23,325 bases of DNA, taken from positions 1 to 23,325 of the IMG/VR virus record IMGVR_UViG_3300018421_000221; one strand, given 5' to 3'. This stretch comes from a virus. Below the pieces are notes generated by a model. The model did no database searches, was not told where the DNA came from, and saw only the letters and a program-made list of their open reading frames with translations. Positions within the stretch are counted from its first letter, which is position 1. Every line of letters begins with the position of its first letter. A program made the translations under genes and the position numbers. Shown here piece by piece: positions 5,755-22,215 of this stretch.

Positions 5755-7371
5755 ATGTCGCAACTATTTGGTTTCTCTATTGAGAGAGCGAAGAAGGTTC
5801 CAAAGGGACCTTCTTTTGTTCAAAAAGACAACCTCGACGGGTCATACCCCGTTGCTGGAGGTGGTCACTATGGTTATGCAATCGATTTGGATGGTACTAT
5901 CCGAAACGAATGGGAACTTATCTCCCGTTATCGGGAAATGATTATGCAACCAGAGTGTGACGCAGCAGTTGACGATATTGTAAACGAAGCAATCTTTGGT
6001 AATCTGGACGACGTTCCCGTACAAGTGGAACTGTCCAACCTTAAAGTATCTGATAAAATCAAGAAGATGATTCGTGAGGAGTTCAATCACGTATTGACTC
6101 TTCTTGATTTTGATAACAGATGTTATGAAATCTTCCGTCGCTGGTATGTTGACGGGAGACTTTTTTATCATAAGGTTATTGACCCGAAGAACCCTGGCGA
6201 TGGTATGACGGAACTCCGTTATATTGACCCCAGAAAAATTCGTAAGATTACTGAAATTGAATCTAAACCAAACCGTGCTGTCGCAGATGGTCAAAGTATT
6301 AACGATGCATTGACCGCAAGAACTGCAGAGTATTATCTGTACAACCCCAAAGGTCTGAAGTCTTCTAGTACTCAAGGCGTTCAGTCACAAGGCATTAGAG
6401 TTGCCGCCGATTCCATTTCATATACTCATAGTGGAATCATGGATTTGAATAAGAACATGGTTCTTTCTCATCTCCATAAAGCAATCAAAGCAGTAAACCA
6501 ACTGCGGATGATTGAAGACTCTCTTGTCATCTATCGTTTGAGTAGAGCACCCGAGCGTAGAATTTTCTACATTGATGTGGGTAACCTGCCTAAGCAAAAA
6601 GCGGAGCAATATCTCCGTGAAGTTATGGGTCGCTATCGTAACAAGTTGGTTTACGATGCAAGCACTGGTGAAATCAAGGACGACAAAAAGTTCATGTCCA
6701 TGATGGAAGATTTCTGGCTTCCTCGCCGTGAAGGTGGTAGGGGTACAGAAATCACTACGCTTCCTGGTGGTCAGAACCTTGGCGAACTTGAAGATGTTAA
6801 GTATTTTCAGAAGAAACTGTTCAAGGCACTTAACGTTCCTGTAAGTAGAATTGAAACTGAGAACACTTTTAACATTGGTCGTGCTGCGGAAATTACCCGC
6901 GATGAAGTTAAGTTCCAGAAGTTCATCGCCCGTCTCCGTAAGCGTTTCTCAGAATTGTTCCTTGACCTTCTCAAGACTCAGTTGGTACTGAAAGGTATCG
7001 TATCGATTGAAGACTGGGATGAGATGAAGGAACAGATTCAGTTCGACTATGTTGCGGACTCGTACTATAACGAACTGAAGCAAATCGAAATCATGAACGA
7101 GCGTATGGGTGTTGTCAATCAACTTGACCCCTACGTTGGTAAGTACTTCTCTGTTGAATATCTGCGGAAGCAAATTCTGAAGCAGACTGACGGAGAGTTT
7201 GAAGAAATTGACGAACAGATTCAACGCGAAATTGAAGAAGGGATTATTCAAGACCCTGCTGCAATGGAAGACCCAATGATGGGAATGGCACCTGAGGCAG
7301 AAGCACCTGCTGCGGAACCTAACCCTGAAGAGGACGTTGATGAAGAAGACCGCAGAATGGCGGAATTCTAA
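5755..7371 (+). CDS. gp20: Portal vertex protein (gp20)
   Basis: This is the dodecameric portal at the unique head vertex; it nucleates prohead assembly, is the docking site of terminase and the channel for DNA. The 538 aa compare with 524 in T4 gp20. Regions that support the call are the N-terminal RYREMIMQPECDAAVDDIVN, the IDPRKIRKI segment, and the ETENTFNIGRAAEITRDE segment that precedes the channel helices. The C-terminus is acidic and Ala/Pro/Glu-rich (last 40 residues). The start has no good ribosome binding site but is preceded by ACTGGTTTT, shared with the next gene. This is the gene often used as a marker for cyanomyoviruses. Confidence 0.96.
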   Translation: MSQLFGFSIERAKKVPKGPSFVQKDNLDGSYPVAGGGHYGYAIDLDGTIRNEWELISRYREMIMQPECDAAVDDIVNEAIFGNLDDVPVQVELSNLKVSDKIKKMIREEFNHVLTLLDFDNRCYEIFRRWYVDGRLFYHKVIDPKNPGDGMTELRYIDPRKIRKITEIESKPNRAVADGQSINDALTARTAEYYLYNPKGLKSSSTQGVQSQGIRVAADSISYTHSGIMDLNKNMVLSHLHKAIKAVNQLRMIEDSLVIYRLSRAPERRIFYIDVGNLPKQKAEQYLREVMGRYRNKLVYDASTGEIKDDKKFMSMMEDFWLPRREGGRGTEITTLPGGQNLGELEDVKYFQKKLFKALNVPVSRIETENTFNIGRAAEITRDEVKFQKFIARLRKRFSELFLDLLKTQLVLKGIVSIEDWDEMKEQIQFDYVADSYYNELKQIEIMNERMGVVNQLDPYVGKYFSVEYLRKQILKQTDGEFEEIDEQIQREIEEGIIQDPAAMEDPMMGMAPEAEAPAAEPNPEEDVDEEDRRMAEF

Positions 7372-7373
7372 GT

Positions 7374-7390
7374 CTATAAATATATTATAG
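7374..7390 (+). repeat. Perfect inverted repeat around the gp67 late promoter
   Basis: CTATAA at 7374-7379 and TTATAG at 7385-7390 enclose ATATA. As at gp20, the late promoter lies across the arm and loop of the palindrome. The stem is AT-rich and weak, so a DNA-level or promoter-melting role is as likely as an RNA hairpin. Confidence 0.6.
7375..7382 (+). promoter_or_regulatory. Consensus late promoter for the prohead core/protease genes
   Basis: TATAAATA, an exact match to the T4 late consensus, lies 4 bases after the gp20 stop and 25 bases before the next start. Transcription would begin about 7388, giving a leader of fewer than 20 bases. Confidence 0.8.
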
Positions 7391-7406
7391 TTCGACTGGT
7401 TTTGTA

Positions 7407-7745
7407 ATGAGTGACACAGAGCTTAATAATGATGTTGATGATAGTCAGGTAGAAGGTGGTGTTGAAGAACCCACCTTTTCTGCCGCCGATATCGTTGATG
7501 CAATTTTTGATGATAATCGTGTAGCAACTTTGCAACGCGCTACCGATGTGATGCAACAGAAAGCTTTCGACGCTGTACAGCAAAAGAAGGTTGAGTTTGC
7601 AGGGGAGTGGGGATTTAATCTCGACCAAACCGCGCAAGCAGTTGCAGACGAGTTGACGGACGAACTGCCTGATAATACCGACATCCCAGGTACTGAACCT
7701 GAGGAACAAGAAACAGAGGAACCAACCGATGAAACTTATAGCTGA
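7407..7745 (+). CDS. gp67: Prohead core protein (gp67-like)
   Basis: A 112-aa, very acidic protein (N-terminal DVDDSQVEGGVEEP, C-terminal Glu/Thr/Pro-rich tail) with a central helical segment (about residues 25-75). It lies between portal and protease, exactly where T4 has the small core proteins gp67 and gp68, which form the inner scaffold core and are degraded by gp21. Sequence similarity to T4 gp67 (80 aa) cannot be confirmed by eye, so the call rests on position, size and charge. It overlaps gp21 by 17 bases. The start has the ACTGGTTTT leader element and no Shine-Dalgarno sequence. Confidence 0.7.
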   Translation: MSDTELNNDVDDSQVEGGVEEPTFSAADIVDAIFDDNRVATLQRATDVMQQKAFDAVQQKKVEFAGEWGFNLDQTAQAVADELTDELPDNTDIPGTEPEEQETEEPTDETYS

Positions 7746-8373
7746 AGAAATTACAGACGTTCAATTTATTACTGAAGAGAACGAAGGTAAGAAATCTCAT
7801 TTTATTGAGGGCATTTTCCTGCAGGGTGAAATCACCAACCGCAACAACCGCATGTACCCTGTAAATGTACTTGCTCGGGAAGTTGCTAAATATGATGAGA
7901 ACTTTATCAGCAAAGGTCGCGCACTTGGAGAACTGGGTCATCCCGATGGTCCAACTCTGAACCTCGACCGCGTTTCACACAAAATTACATCGCTCAAGCA
8001 AGAAGGTAATAACTTCATCGGCAGAGCGAAGATTCTTGAGACCCCTATGGGAAAAATCGCCAAGAATCTCCTTGATGAAGGTGTAAAACTTGGCGTGTCC
8101 TCCCGTGGAATGGGTTCCATCTCCACGAAAGAGGGTGTCTCTATTGTCGGTGAAGACTTCATGTTGGCAACGGCTGCAGACATCGTTGCTGACCCTTCTG
8201 CTCCTGATGCATTTGTTGAGGGAATTATGGAAGGAAGGGAATGGGTGTGGGATAACGGCATCCTGAAGGAAGCACAAGTTGCAAAAATCAAACAAGAACT
8301 TGATGAAGCAACTTTAATCAACCTTCAGGAGCGCAAGATTTCCGCGTTCAAGTCATTCCTACAAAGTTTGTAA
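7729..8373 (+). CDS. gp21: Prohead maturation protease (gp21)
   Basis: This is the serine protease that sits in the prohead core and, once assembly is complete, cleaves scaffold and capsid proteins to allow DNA entry. The length, 214 aa, is close to T4 gp21 (212 aa). The herpes-type assemblin fold is supported by GELGHPDGP with the likely catalytic H71 and by KLGVSSRGMGS with the likely nucleophile Ser124 or Ser125. The N-terminal strand with NRNNRMYP is typical of the family. It starts within the 3' end of the core protein gene; GAGGAACC just upstream can serve as ribosome binding site. Confidence 0.95.
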   Translation: MKLIAEEITDVQFITEENEGKKSHFIEGIFLQGEITNRNNRMYPVNVLAREVAKYDENFISKGRALGELGHPDGPTLNLDRVSHKITSLKQEGNNFIGRAKILETPMGKIAKNLLDEGVKLGVSSRGMGSISTKEGVSIVGEDFMLATAADIVADPSAPDAFVEGIMEGREWVWDNGILKEAQVAKIKQELDEATLINLQERKISAFKSFLQSL

Positions 8374-18693: not shown

Positions 18694-18723
18694 TTGCGCG
18701 GAGTGCCCCATTGCTGCTATAAT
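18694..18723 (+). promoter_or_regulatory. Sigma70-like promoter of the VWA/HExxH gene
   Basis: A perfect -10 (TATAAT, 18718-18723) is preceded by GC, as in the other GCTATAMT elements. A weak -35 (TTGCGC, 18694-18699) lies 18 bases upstream. Transcription near 18730 leaves ATG 18747 in the message but not GTG 18726, which decides the start of the downstream gene. Confidence 0.65.
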
Positions 18724-18746
18724 ACGTGGGTAACCGACAGAGAGAC

Positions 18747-20873
18747 ATGCAGGTCAACACCGAAGTCAAAGGCACTCTTGCTAAGTTGCTTGCGACCGAA
18801 AACCTGAATGTTGAGCACCGTAAAATTACGACTGCTTACTTCGATACCGAACGTCGGATTCTCGCGCTTCCTATCTGGAAGCAGGTTACTGGAGATGTGT
18901 ATGACCTCCTTGTGGGACATGAGGTTGGTCATGCACTGTACACTCCTAATGAGGATTATAGTTCTGCTCCTAAGGACTTCGTAAACGTCCTAGAGGATGC
19001 TCGTGTAGAACGTAAGATGAAGGTGACCTATCCTGGTCTCCGTAAGTCTTTCTACAAGGGTTATCAAGAACTCAACACTCGCGACTTCTTCGGTACTCTT
19101 TCCGAAGATACTTCTAAACTTGCTTTGATTGACCGTATCAATCTTCACTTCAAGGTTGGTCTACTGGACGGTGTGTCTATTCCTTTTTCTGAGGATGAAC
19201 TTAAGTGGGTTGAACTGACTGAAAAGACTGAAACTTTTCAGGACGTTGTTGAACTTGCCAAGCAACTGTATGCTGAGGCAAGCAAGCGAGAAGAGGAGAA
19301 AGATTCTTTCCCTGAGACTCCCTATAATAATTCTGAATCTGGTGAGGAGACAGAGGAGAAAGAAGACAAAGAGTATAGTCCTCAGTCCAGCAATGAATCT
19401 GGTGAAGAGTCTGGCGAAAGCATGACTCATGAAGAGATGCTGGAAGAAGCAGAAAAGCGTGAGCAGGAAAATGAAGGTGGTGAGTCTTTCGATGAGACTG
19501 AATCTATCACCGATAAAGCATGGAGAGATAATCAAGAACTGCTTGTCGATGACAACGCAAAGGAATGGCTGTACATCAGTACTCCTGAACCCATTCTTGA
19601 TAGCATTATCCATTCTTACAAGGTTGTAAACCACGACCTCGGTGCTTACTTCAGTGAGATTGAAAGTTCCAACTCTTATCAATGGACGATGGAACGCTAC
19701 TTCAAGTTCAAAAAATCTGCTCAGAAATCTGTTAACTATCTGGTCAAGCAGTTTGAGATGAAGAAGTCTGCAGATGCATATCATCGTGCATCTACTTCTC
19801 GCACTGGTGTTCTGGACACCAATAAACTGCACCAGTACAAGTACAGCGAAGACCTGTTTAAGAAAGTTACTATCATTCCTGATGGTAAGAACCATGGTCT
19901 AATCATGCACATTGATTGGTCTGGTTCTATGGCAGGTTGCATTATGGATACCATGAAGCAACTGTACAATCTAATTTGGTTCTGTAGGAAAGTTTCCATT
20001 CCTTTCCGTGTCTTTGCTTTTGTCGGCGGACACAAGGATAATGGACTCCAAGTTCAGAAGGAAGAGGAGCGTGTACTTCGAGTAGACCCGACCTTCAAAC
20101 TGTTTGAATTCTTCAGTTCCAAAATGTCCCCTCGTCTGCTTGACGAGCAAATGAAACTGGTCTGGGCACAGTGTTATTCTGTGTCCTCTGGTTTCCATCA
20201 TCATGGTGGTCACTGGTTCTATGGTCTGGGTAGCACTCCTCTGGCAGAAGCAGTTATGTGTACTCCCTACATCGTCAAGCAATTTAAGCGAGAAGAGAAC
20301 ATCCAGAAAGTTAACGTTATATGTCTCACTGATGGTGAGGCAAATCCCCTCGCTGCCAGGATGACTAAATACAACGAAGAAGATACTTATGAATGCGGTC
20401 CTGTTTATCGCAATCGTCTTCTTTGCCACAGTATGAATAAAGTTTGGATTCTTCGTGACCGCAATAGCAGTTACTCTAAGAAGATTAATCAAAATCCATA
20501 TGCTACAACCACCGAGATTGTAGATTTCTATCGTCAGATTACTGACTATAACTGGATTGGTATTCGTCTTTGCAGTAAGTCTGAACTAAACAACATGCTG
20601 CGTCGTGTCTTTGACTATGAATGTCCTGAGATGAATGTCTACCTTAAGCAGTGGGCTCAGAACAGGTTCTGTAAAATCGAAGACAGACTCGGATTCTCCA
20701 CCATGTTTACGATGCCTAATTCTAACTTTGGTGGTGGTACTGAGAGCATTGATGTCAAACAGAAGGGTGATGCACCTACTAAAGCAGAACTACAACGTGC
20801 ATTTAAGAAGCACATGAGTTCTAAGATGACAAACAAGACTCTCCTAAATGCGTTCGTGGAGCAAATCGTATGA
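18747..20873 (+). CDS. HExxH metallopeptidase-like protein with C-terminal VWA domain (CobT-like)
   Basis: A 708-aa protein with three parts. Residues 1 to about 175 hold a zincin motif, H58-E-V-G-H62 (VGHEVGHALY), and a downstream LEDARVER whose Glu can be the third metal ligand. Residues about 180-255 are an extremely acidic Glu/Ser/Gly linker. The rest contains a von Willebrand A domain with a complete MIDAS: DWSGS at 390-394, Thr497 (GSTP) and Asp529 (LTDG). An acidic linker before VWA is a hallmark of CobT and of BchD/ChlD-type chelatase subunits, which partner MoxR-type AAA+ ATPases; such an ATPase is encoded just downstream. ATG 18747 is preferred over GTG 18726 because the promoter -10 ends at 18723. 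The role is probably protein or complex remodelling; whether it cleaves peptides is unknown. Confidence 0.85.
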   Translation: MQVNTEVKGTLAKLLATENLNVEHRKITTAYFDTERRILALPIWKQVTGDVYDLLVGHEVGHALYTPNEDYSSAPKDFVNVLEDARVERKMKVTYPGLRKSFYKGYQELNTRDFFGTLSEDTSKLALIDRINLHFKVGLLDGVSIPFSEDELKWVELTEKTETFQDVVELAKQLYAEASKREEEKDSFPETPYNNSESGEETEEKEDKEYSPQSSNESGEESGESMTHEEMLEEAEKREQENEGGESFDETESITDKAWRDNQELLVDDNAKEWLYISTPEPILDSIIHSYKVVNHDLGAYFSEIESSNSYQWTMERYFKFKKSAQKSVNYLVKQFEMKKSADAYHRASTSRTGVLDTNKLHQYKYSEDLFKKVTIIPDGKNHGLIMHIDWSGSMAGCIMDTMKQLYNLIWFCRKVSIPFRVFAFVGGHKDNGLQVQKEEERVLRVDPTFKLFEFFSSKMSPRLLDEQMKLVWAQCYSVSSGFHHHGGHWFYGLGSTPLAEAVMCTPYIVKQFKREENIQKVNVICLTDGEANPLAARMTKYNEEDTYECGPVYRNRLLCHSMNKVWILRDRNSSYSKKINQNPYATTTEIVDFYRQITDYNWIGIRLCSKSELNNMLRRVFDYECPEMNVYLKQWAQNRFCKIEDRLGFSTMFTMPNSNFGGGTESIDVKQKGDAPTKAELQRAFKKHMSSKMTNKTLLNAFVEQIV

Positions 20874-21055
20874 GATGGTTAATCAAATACAACTGCCCTA
20901 AACAAGACCCAAATCTTTATAAGGAAAAGATTATGCTAGGGTCTAACCAAGCAAGGGTCTGTGAACAATTTTCAAAAGAACATCCTGGATGCTTCATTAA
21001 AGGGTTCCCCCGACCAGTAGGAGGGGGAACTGAGATTGGTGAACCGCCAAAATAA
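20870..21055 (+). CDS. Small hypothetical protein between the VWA and AAA+ genes
   Basis: A 61-aa ORF starting on an ATGA overlap with the VWA gene, so probably cotranslated. It has a compact N-terminal strand (MRWLIKYNC), a basic helix, three Cys and a Gly/Pro-rich C-terminus (FPRPVGGGTEIGEPPK). The Cys are not arranged in a clear zinc-finger pattern. A terminator follows 8 bases after the stop. Its placement within the AAA+/VWA module makes a linked role possible, but none is visible in the sequence. Confidence 0.65.
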   Translation: MRWLIKYNCPKQDPNLYKEKIMLGSNQARVCEQFSKEHPGCFIKGFPRPVGGGTEIGEPPK

Positions 21056-21062
21056 GTGTCCC

Positions 21063-21086
21063 AACCCCCTTGCTAAGGGGGTTTTT
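21063..21086 (+). terminator. Intrinsic terminator between the VWA unit and the AAA+ gene
   Basis: AACCCCCTT (21063-21071), loop GCT, and AAGGGGGTT (21075-21083) form a perfect 9-bp stem followed by T to 21086. The loop and following stem contain the -35 of the next promoter. Confidence 0.93.
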
Positions 21087-21098
21087 CAATGCTATAAT
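21070..21098 (+). promoter_or_regulatory. Sigma70 promoter of the AAA+ gene, overlapping the terminator
   Basis: TTGCTA (21070-21075) and a perfect TATAAT (21093-21098) are spaced by 17 bases. The -10 has the GCTATAAT form. Start of transcription near 21105 leaves about 15 bases before ATG 21121. The hexamer TTGCTA lies in the hairpin of the preceding terminator, a compact back-to-back arrangement. Confidence 0.8.
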
Positions 21099-21120
21099 TA
21101 CGGAGTAATCGAAACAAACC

Positions 21121-22215
21121 ATGCCTGCCAAGTCTCCTCTGACTACCGAGCAAGTCCGCGACTACATCCTGAGCAACAACGGTCCTGAGATTGGAGCGTC
21201 TGTTGTTTCTGATACTGCTGCACACTTTGGCGTCTCTGTACCTACCCTGTCCAAGCGCCTGGAGCAGTACAAAGTAGGACGTGGAAAGTGGAACCTCACT
21301 GTCAAAGAACGTCTTGAGCAGACCTATCAATCGTCTGCTGTTCCCGTACGGGAAACTCAGTGTTTTGTTCCTGATAAAGACGAGACTTTTGTCCCGTTCG
21401 GGAACTTCACCGACCTTAAAAAGGTTCTGCAGTCTCAGCGATTCTATCCTCTCTTCATCACTGGTCTCTCTGGTAACGGTAAGACTTTTGGCGTTGAGCA
21501 GGCATGCGCTCAACTGAAGCGTGAATTGATTCGTGTTAATATCACTATTGAGACTGATGAAGATGACCTTATCGGTGGTTTTAGGCTTGTTGATGGGAAT
21601 ACTGCATGGCACAACGGTCCCGTTATCGATGCCCTTGAGCGAGGAGCAGTGTTGCTCCTGGACGAAATCGACCTTGCTTCCAACAAAATCCTCTGCCTTC
21701 AGTCTATTCTAGAAGGCAAGGGTGTCTTCCTCAAGAAGATTGGACGCTACGTTCAACCCGCTCCTGGTTTTACTGTTGTTGCGACTGCCAATACCAAGGG
21801 TAAGGGCAGCGATGACGGTCGCTTCATCGGTACTAATGTACTGAACGAAGCGTTCTTGGAACGTTTTCCGATTACCTTTGAGCAATCGTACCCTACTGCT
21901 GCCACCGAAACTAAAATCCTCCTGCATGCCATGGGTAGGTTCGATTGTGAGGACAGTGAATTCGCTGACAACCTCGTCAAGTGGGCGGGTGTAATCCGTA
22001 AAACCTTCTTCGATGGTGGCGTCGATGAAGTGATTACAACCCGTCGCTTGGTTCATATCGTACAAGCGTACGGTATTTTTAGTGATAAACTTAAAGCAAT
22101 CACCAATTGTGTAAATCGTTTTGATGAGGATACCAAGCAATCGTTCTTGGAACTCTACACTAAAGTTGATGCTGGTGAAGACCTTTCCGATGAATCTGAA
22201 CATGAAGTACAATGA
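21121..22215 (+). CDS. cobS: MoxR/CobS-type AAA+ ATPase
   Basis: A 364-aa AAA+ protein. Walker A is GLSGNGKT at 115-122, Walker B is AVLLLDEID at 176-184, sensor 1 is VVATANT, and a C-terminal lid contains TTRRLVHI. This set is typical of the MoxR group with CobS, and cyanophage homologues are normally annotated CobS (cobaltochelatase subunit). The N-terminal 50 residues include a helix-turn-helix-like stretch (VSDTAAHFGVSVPTLSKRL, 29-47), which hints at DNA or partner binding. It probably works with the VWA protein encoded upstream, since MoxR ATPases nearly always act with VWA partners. A role in cobalamin synthesis is unproven. It has its own promoter, and overlaps the next gene. Confidence 0.88.
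   Translation: MPAKSPLTTEQVRDYILSNNGPEIGASVVSDTAAHFGVSVPTLSKRLEQYKVGRGKWNLTVKERLEQTYQSSAVPVRETQCFVPDKDETFVPFGNFTDLKKVLQSQRFYPLFITGLSGNGKTFGVEQACAQLKRELIRVNITIETDEDDLIGGFRLVDGNTAWHNGPVIDALERGAVLLLDEIDLASNKILCLQSILEGKGVFLKKIGRYVQPAPGFTVVATANTKGKGSDDGRFIGTNVLNEAFLERFPITFEQSYPTAATETKILLHAMGRFDCEDSEFADNLVKWAGVIRKTFFDGGVDEVITTRRLVHIVQAYGIFSDKLKAITNCVNRFDEDTKQSFLELYTKVDAGEDLSDESEHEVQ

Follow-up and report, generated by a model that had tools for sequence, protein, structure and literature searches.

We analyzed a 23.3-kb virus record from a T4-like cyanophage (IMG/VR record IMGVR_UViG_3300018421_000221; "the window" is this whole stretch). Genes identified in the window included those for tail sheath, major head, a UvsW-like helicase, the late sigma factor, gp47, gp46, and gp45. 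Between gp46 (PHROG 77, E 8e-186) and gp45 (PHROG 223, E 9e-89) we found a 708-residue protein with a zincin-like head and a VWA domain, a 61-residue open reading frame (ORF), a 364-residue AAA+ ATPase, and a small ORF before gp45. The zincin-VWA protein and the ATPase, referred to here as the pair, are the subject of this analysis. A preliminary description of this DNA had listed the ORFs, an HEVGH motif, an acidic linker, a complete VWA metal ion-dependent adhesion site (MIDAS), and AAA+ motifs, and all of them were found in the window:

18747–20873, plus strand: gene for the zincin-VWA adaptor, 708 residues (ORF, translation, and PHROG 459 "peptidase", E 1e-276).
18747–19271, plus strand: N-terminal zincin-like domain, residues 1–175, with HEVGH at 18918–18932 (residues 58–62) and a predicted third ligand, E83, in NVLEDARVE.
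19272–19496, plus strand: acidic linker, approximately residues 176–250, predicted to be disordered from its sequence and from a predicted local distance difference test score (pLDDT) below 50 at residues 189–246.
19671–19871, plus strand: long helix and hairpin before the VWA domain, residues 309–375, LVKQFEMKKSAD...GVLDTNKLH, a candidate equivalent of the NorD finger.
19884–20723, plus strand: VWA domain with a complete MIDAS (DWSGS at 19914–19928, T497, and D529).
21121–22215, plus strand: gene for the MoxR/CobS-type AAA+ ATPase, 364 residues (AAA_5, E 1e-17; PHROG 249 "porphyrin biosynthesis", E 1e-138).

A Pfam search with the 708-residue protein gave no match at all. HExxH was present in 58 of 58 T4-like homologues, and this conservation, together with a downstream NxxED motif, rules out a chance occurrence. 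In an alignment of 38 T4-like proteins the invariant columns included H58, E59, H62, N80, E83, D84, and R86, as well as D390, S392, S394, T497, and D529 of the MIDAS. From the sequence we infer that E83 is the third metal ligand. A zincin fold is expected to present strands, then the HExxH helix, and then a helix that bears a glutamate. The order of secondary structure in the AlphaFold2 model of the N-domain fits a zincin because three strands (residues 21–25, 31–33, and 38–42) are followed by a helix with HExxH (49–65) and a helix with E83 (76–94).

The AAA+ module takes up approximately residues 80–350 of the ATPase, and its Walker A (GLSGNGKT) and Walker B (LLLLDE) motifs were invariant or nearly so among 33 ATPase sequences. 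The ATPase fold, compared over residues 76–351, matched CbbQ (Z 24.8, root-mean-square deviation [rmsd] 2.3, 259 residues aligned) and NorQ (Z 23.5, rmsd 2.4, 250 aligned). For the partner, the fold search covered mainly residues 317–708 and matched the VWA domain of NorD (Z 16.0, rmsd 4.7, 260 aligned) and the MIDAS domain of MDN1 (Z 15.9, rmsd 3.7, 221 aligned). Residues 309–375 were among the most conserved stretches and lay within the region aligned to NorD; by analogy, they are a candidate for the NorD finger. AlphaFold2 also predicted a winged-helix-like domain at ATPase residues 9–58 (window 21145–21294), possibly a DNA-binding part.

The two genes were almost always found together. In a phage collection, 463 records matched the VWA protein, 459 of them over most of its length, and 459 held most of the ATPase; the totals for the two genes were identical in Synechococcus (365), Cyanophage (61), and Prochlorococcus (24) records, these figures being matching totals rather than record-by-record pairings. 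All 141 viral contigs with both genes carried them on the same strand, the distance between the two having a median of 316 bases, and viral loci with a single gene were mostly cut by contig ends. The locus thus combines a MoxR-class AAA+ fold, Walker A and B motifs, a partner with a complete MIDAS, and linkage of the two genes, as in other MoxR-VWA couples. The preliminary description had proposed such a couple, and both the linkage and the matches to NorQ/CbbQ and NorD folds bear it out. Of the outcomes it had named as contrary to its proposal, those that we could check, loss of HExxH from most homologues and genomes commonly carrying one gene alone, were not what we found. Its placement of the pair between gp46 and gp45 held for most of the T4-like members seen, whereas in S-CREM2 and S-CRM01 the pair lies elsewhere. 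Origin as a host-derived metabolic gene was unsupported, as no VWA relative turned up in 145 cyanobacterial genomes and the AAA+ matches there were all distant (at most 81 bits, versus 614 bits for a phage-like contig). A defense system was likewise rejected, PADLOC having given nothing beyond a 12-bit match.

These genes have been catalogued before. cobS is listed as a cyanophage core gene (PMC3037559), and cobST has been described as core in T4-like cyanophages, with cobT said to be "mistakenly annotated as a peptidase" (PMC8651126). The viral "cobST", or PHROG 459 and 249, are the same genes as the pair in the window. The catalogue label denotes cobalamin synthesis; our evidence favors retaining "peptidase-like" for the VWA gene. 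PMC7159879 brings up metallopeptidases only as infrequent effectors that are fused to VWA proteins, or as distinct peptide-processing genes, and our literature search found no description on point of a zincin in MoxR partners. A search for transcriptome papers naming cobS likewise returned none on point. The pair itself was known before.

An intact head was also found well outside the T4-like phages. The arrangement HExxH-(about 20–30)-NxxED occurred in Ochrobactrum, Salmonella SSU5, Rhizobium, and Roseobacter phages, in an IncC plasmid, and in a Hydrogenophaga plasmid, with a close variant in a Xanthomonas plasmid; in Vibrio ICP2 and Gordonia phages HExxH was likewise kept, and the sequence after it had diverged further. 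More than 1,000 plasmid records matched the VWA family, the majority of them predicted to be conjugative. Intact heads were also present in some genome records of unsettled kind, and the family may extend beyond mobile elements. This phage is thus not alone in joining zincin to VWA, since a broad family of mobile elements has that architecture. The preliminary description was right to emphasize the head. In Pseudoalteromonas phage XG4 (locus 5851–8109) the zincin and the VWA domain are encoded by two separate adjacent ORFs whose order is reversed, and the AAA+ gene comes next. The IncC plasmid NZ_AP018143 (648–6693) carries, in a row, genes for a CobS-like AAA+ protein, a hypothetical protein, ssb, bet, a lambda-type exonuclease, DUF3150, and the zincin-VWA protein. 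On the Hydrogenophaga conjugative plasmid (locus 1982–4906), the zincin-VWA gene is separated by a few genes from one for a B12-dependent ribonucleotide reductase, which might be a link to cobalamin.

We read the gene neighborhoods lineage by lineage. Depending on the lineage, the neighbors of the pair were gp46 and gp45, clamp and clamp loader, ligase or DNA polymerase III alpha, primase/helicase/polymerase, ssb-bet-exo, or ssb and primase. The preliminary description had suggested that the pair works during replication as a chaperone or a regulated protease. Such a role is plausible and fits these neighborhoods; proteolysis and the target are what we infer.

Cellular relatives of the zincin-VWA protein appeared to have lost the active site. 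None of 30 cellular CobT sequences had HExxH at that position, and the ExxRxE helix was kept. The CobT N-domain model PF06213 matched HExxH-bearing phage members (SSU5, 129.6 bits; PhiR41_1, 94.7 bits; CRP-810, 57.5 bits), and the alignment set the phage HExxH against SIALK-like residues of CobT. A profile of the intact head also found ORFs of approximately 755–790 residues in many Pseudomonadota genomes. We use "NorD/CbbO-type" as a working name for those with HMxxH. All four that we read had HMxxH followed by an ED-containing helix, so that the metal-ligand histidines are kept and the catalytic glutamate is replaced. One of these ORFs, compared with the PDB, had a VWA domain homologous to NorD (E 3.6e-42), and both of the two checked adjoined a MoxR-like ORF. 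In a tree of the VWA region only, which was unrooted and had long branches, the intact or lost state of the head required 3 changes versus a mean of 11.4 after shuffling, and cellular CobT formed a single clade (100/100). These comparisons suggest that the ancestor of the family likely had an intact head, and that the heads of NorD/CbbO-type proteins and of cellular CobT look disabled.

The remaining features of the locus lie around and between the two genes:

18694–18723, plus strand: predicted VWA-gene promoter, with a weak -35 (TTGCGC, 18694–18699) and an extended -10, TGCTATAAT, with TATAAT at 18718–18723.
20870–21055, plus strand: 61-residue ORF of unknown function, overlapping the end of the VWA gene, with patchy conservation.
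21066–21086, plus strand: terminator-like hairpin with a T tail (stem-loop 21066–21081), preceding the AAA+ gene promoter.
21070–21098, plus strand: predicted AAA+ gene promoter, TTGCTA-17-TATAAT.

The preliminary description had credited the module with its own control signals, and comparison across related loci agreed. Within the 60 nt ahead of the VWA gene, 31 of 37 related loci had an extended -10 (TGnTATAAT-like), approximately 30 bases from the gene, versus 54 of 239 other ORFs. Upstream of the AAA+ gene, TATAAT occurred in 30 of 41 related loci versus 59 of 239 other ORFs, and shuffled sequences gave on average fewer than one extended -10. The first promoter was not listed by a consensus scan because its -35 matches the consensus at only 3 of 6 positions. 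With the terminator-like hairpin ahead of the second promoter, the VWA and AAA+ genes each have their own predicted promoter, an ordinary sigma70-type signal with nothing special about it. The start of the VWA gene is better set at ATG 18747 than at GTG 18726, because transcription is expected to begin only after the GTG, which lies 3 bases beyond the -10, and because homologues start at the ATG position. For the 61-residue ORF, tblastn recovered a counterpart in few related loci, and family and profile searches gave no significant match. In P-TIM68 the gap between the VWA and AAA+ genes holds purM and several hypothetical genes.

Starting from the architecture, the conserved site, the pairing, the neighborhoods, and the absence of CobN, all taken from sequence and comparison, we propose that the pair is a NorQD-like remodeling motor with an intact zincin head that acts in DNA replication or recombination and is not a cobaltochelatase. 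We give this proposal an even chance of being correct. In cryo-electron microscopy of NorQD, a finger of the VWA protein lies in the pore of the ring, and the model involves twisting and stretching of the linker between the VWA domain and the N-domain (PMC13036017). By analogy, a hexameric MoxR-class AAA+ ring would hold its VWA partner via a finger in the pore, ATP turnover would twist the VWA domain against the head through the flexible acidic linker, and the motor would gate the action of the head. We consider it probable that the head is a metalloprotease, or failing that a clamp with bound metal, because the complete HExxH...E site is kept, unlike in CobT and the four NorD/CbbO-type proteins. 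Because the mobile-element family that includes the pair is found in replication and recombination modules, the most likely target would be a host or phage protein complex on DNA, remodeled or cut during phage DNA replication.

Four known systems invite comparison. NorQ-NorD, which activates nitric oxide reductase in Paracoccus denitrificans, likewise joins a MoxR ring to a partner with an N-domain, a disordered linker, and a VWA domain, and NorD was the closest structure to the VWA half and NorQ nearly the closest to the ATPase. It differs in that the phage head has HExxH, the phage pair has no nitric oxide reductase as target, and the phage ATPase has an extra winged-helix-like N-terminus. 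In the Rubisco activase CbbQ-CbbO, CbbQ is the closest ATPase fold and the phage zincin profile picks up the cellular NorD/CbbO-type group, although the four members examined lack the catalytic glutamate. Homology to CobS-CobT is detectable in both the VWA half and the ATPase, and PF06213 matches other HExxH-bearing phage members, whereas CobT has lost the H, E, and H of the site, CobN is missing from the phages, and the scores of the window proteins are well short of the family cut-offs. Midasin (MDN1/Rea1) shares the MIDAS domain and AAA+ similarity, the MIDAS domain being part of an AAA+ ring, but it is one giant chain that acts in ribosome assembly, and we know of no zincin head in it.

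The published proposal is that the pair is a true viral CobST (PMC8651126), which would work with host CobN (or ChlH) and raise cobalamin or chlorophyll synthesis. The VWA half is related to CobT (E 2.6e-21) and the ATPase to CobS (E 2.6e-22), and three cyanobacterial genomes checked had two CobN-family proteins each. However, the ATPase scored 79.4 bits against a CobS model with a cut-off of 558.55 and Pfam CobT did not match the window VWA protein, so that the CobS and CobT components of a cobaltochelatase CobNST both fall below family cut-offs. The E. coli control had no CobN-family protein, although the pair is present in E. coli phage PhiR41_1 and in an IncC plasmid of E. coli. Pelagiphage HTVC008M has the pair too, though its SAR11 host group is described as B12-auxotrophic (PMC9296465). 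Six complete phage genomes had no CobN, and no other cob gene was recognized among the window ORFs checked, whereas 44 of 53 genomes with cellular CobT had CobN-family proteins. The HExxH site kept by the phage proteins and missing from cellular CobT points the same way. We therefore consider a viral CobST distinctly unlikely, and the doubt that the preliminary description cast on the cobalamin/porphyrin biosynthesis label is strengthened by hosts that lack CobN or are B12 auxotrophs.

Rather improbable, in our estimate, is that the head binds metal without protease activity and that the pair, like NorQD, serves as a chaperone for metal insertion or conformational change, using HExxH for metal delivery or structure. 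Both halves match NorQD folds, NorQD inserts iron (PMC13036017), and NorD/CbbO-type proteins keep both histidines and the glutamate ligand without the catalytic glutamate, indicating that metal binding can outlive catalysis. Plain metal binding does not need the catalytic glutamate, which is invariant in T4-like members and kept in most of the unrelated phages and plasmids. A virion assembly chaperone, comparable to the MoxR-VWA pair reported in archaeal virus tail assembly, a precedent cited in PMC7159879, would suit the head and tail genes also present in the window. In most lineages, though, the pair lies with replication rather than structural genes, it occurs in conjugative plasmids, which build no virion, and sigma70-type promoters precede both genes; we regard this role as very improbable.

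Several results weigh against a replication-linked protease motor. The whole-model fold search, which barely covered the N-domain, reported no zincin fold, and sequence-based PDB searches with N-domain profiles returned no zincin and nothing meaningful. Two phage lineages, that of a Stenotrophomonas phage and that of Pseudomonas ZY21, have lost HExxH, so some members do without catalysis. The neighbors of the pair in Roseobacter CRP-810 and Gordonia were mostly uninformative, and adjacency to replication genes is suggestive only, because such genes fill much of these genomes. Direct comparison of cyanophage and cellular CobT N-domains by hhalign was weak (5% probability, E 0.0076), and that link rests on intermediates. 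For cyanophages taken alone, the viral CobST explanation may still apply, as cyanobacteria have CobN-family proteins.

A wider view is more tentative, and we find it possible though doubtful: phages and conjugative plasmids may share an ATP-gated metalloprotease for replication and recombination, and the CobT and NorD/CbbO-type adaptors may have arisen where descendants of that common zincin-VWA ancestor lost catalysis. Surveys of marine viruses count cobS among the cobalamin genes, and it serves as a marker of myo-cyanophages (PMC9983427). If the pair is a replication-linked remodeling protease, then a gene that is very common in marine viruses has been misread as one for cobalamin. A study of NorQD (PMC9976466) treated the N-domains of CobT and of NorD/CbbO-type proteins as unrelated and non-conserved, and an intact zincin head offers an explanation for them. 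One shared machine would, moreover, tie phages to conjugative plasmids.

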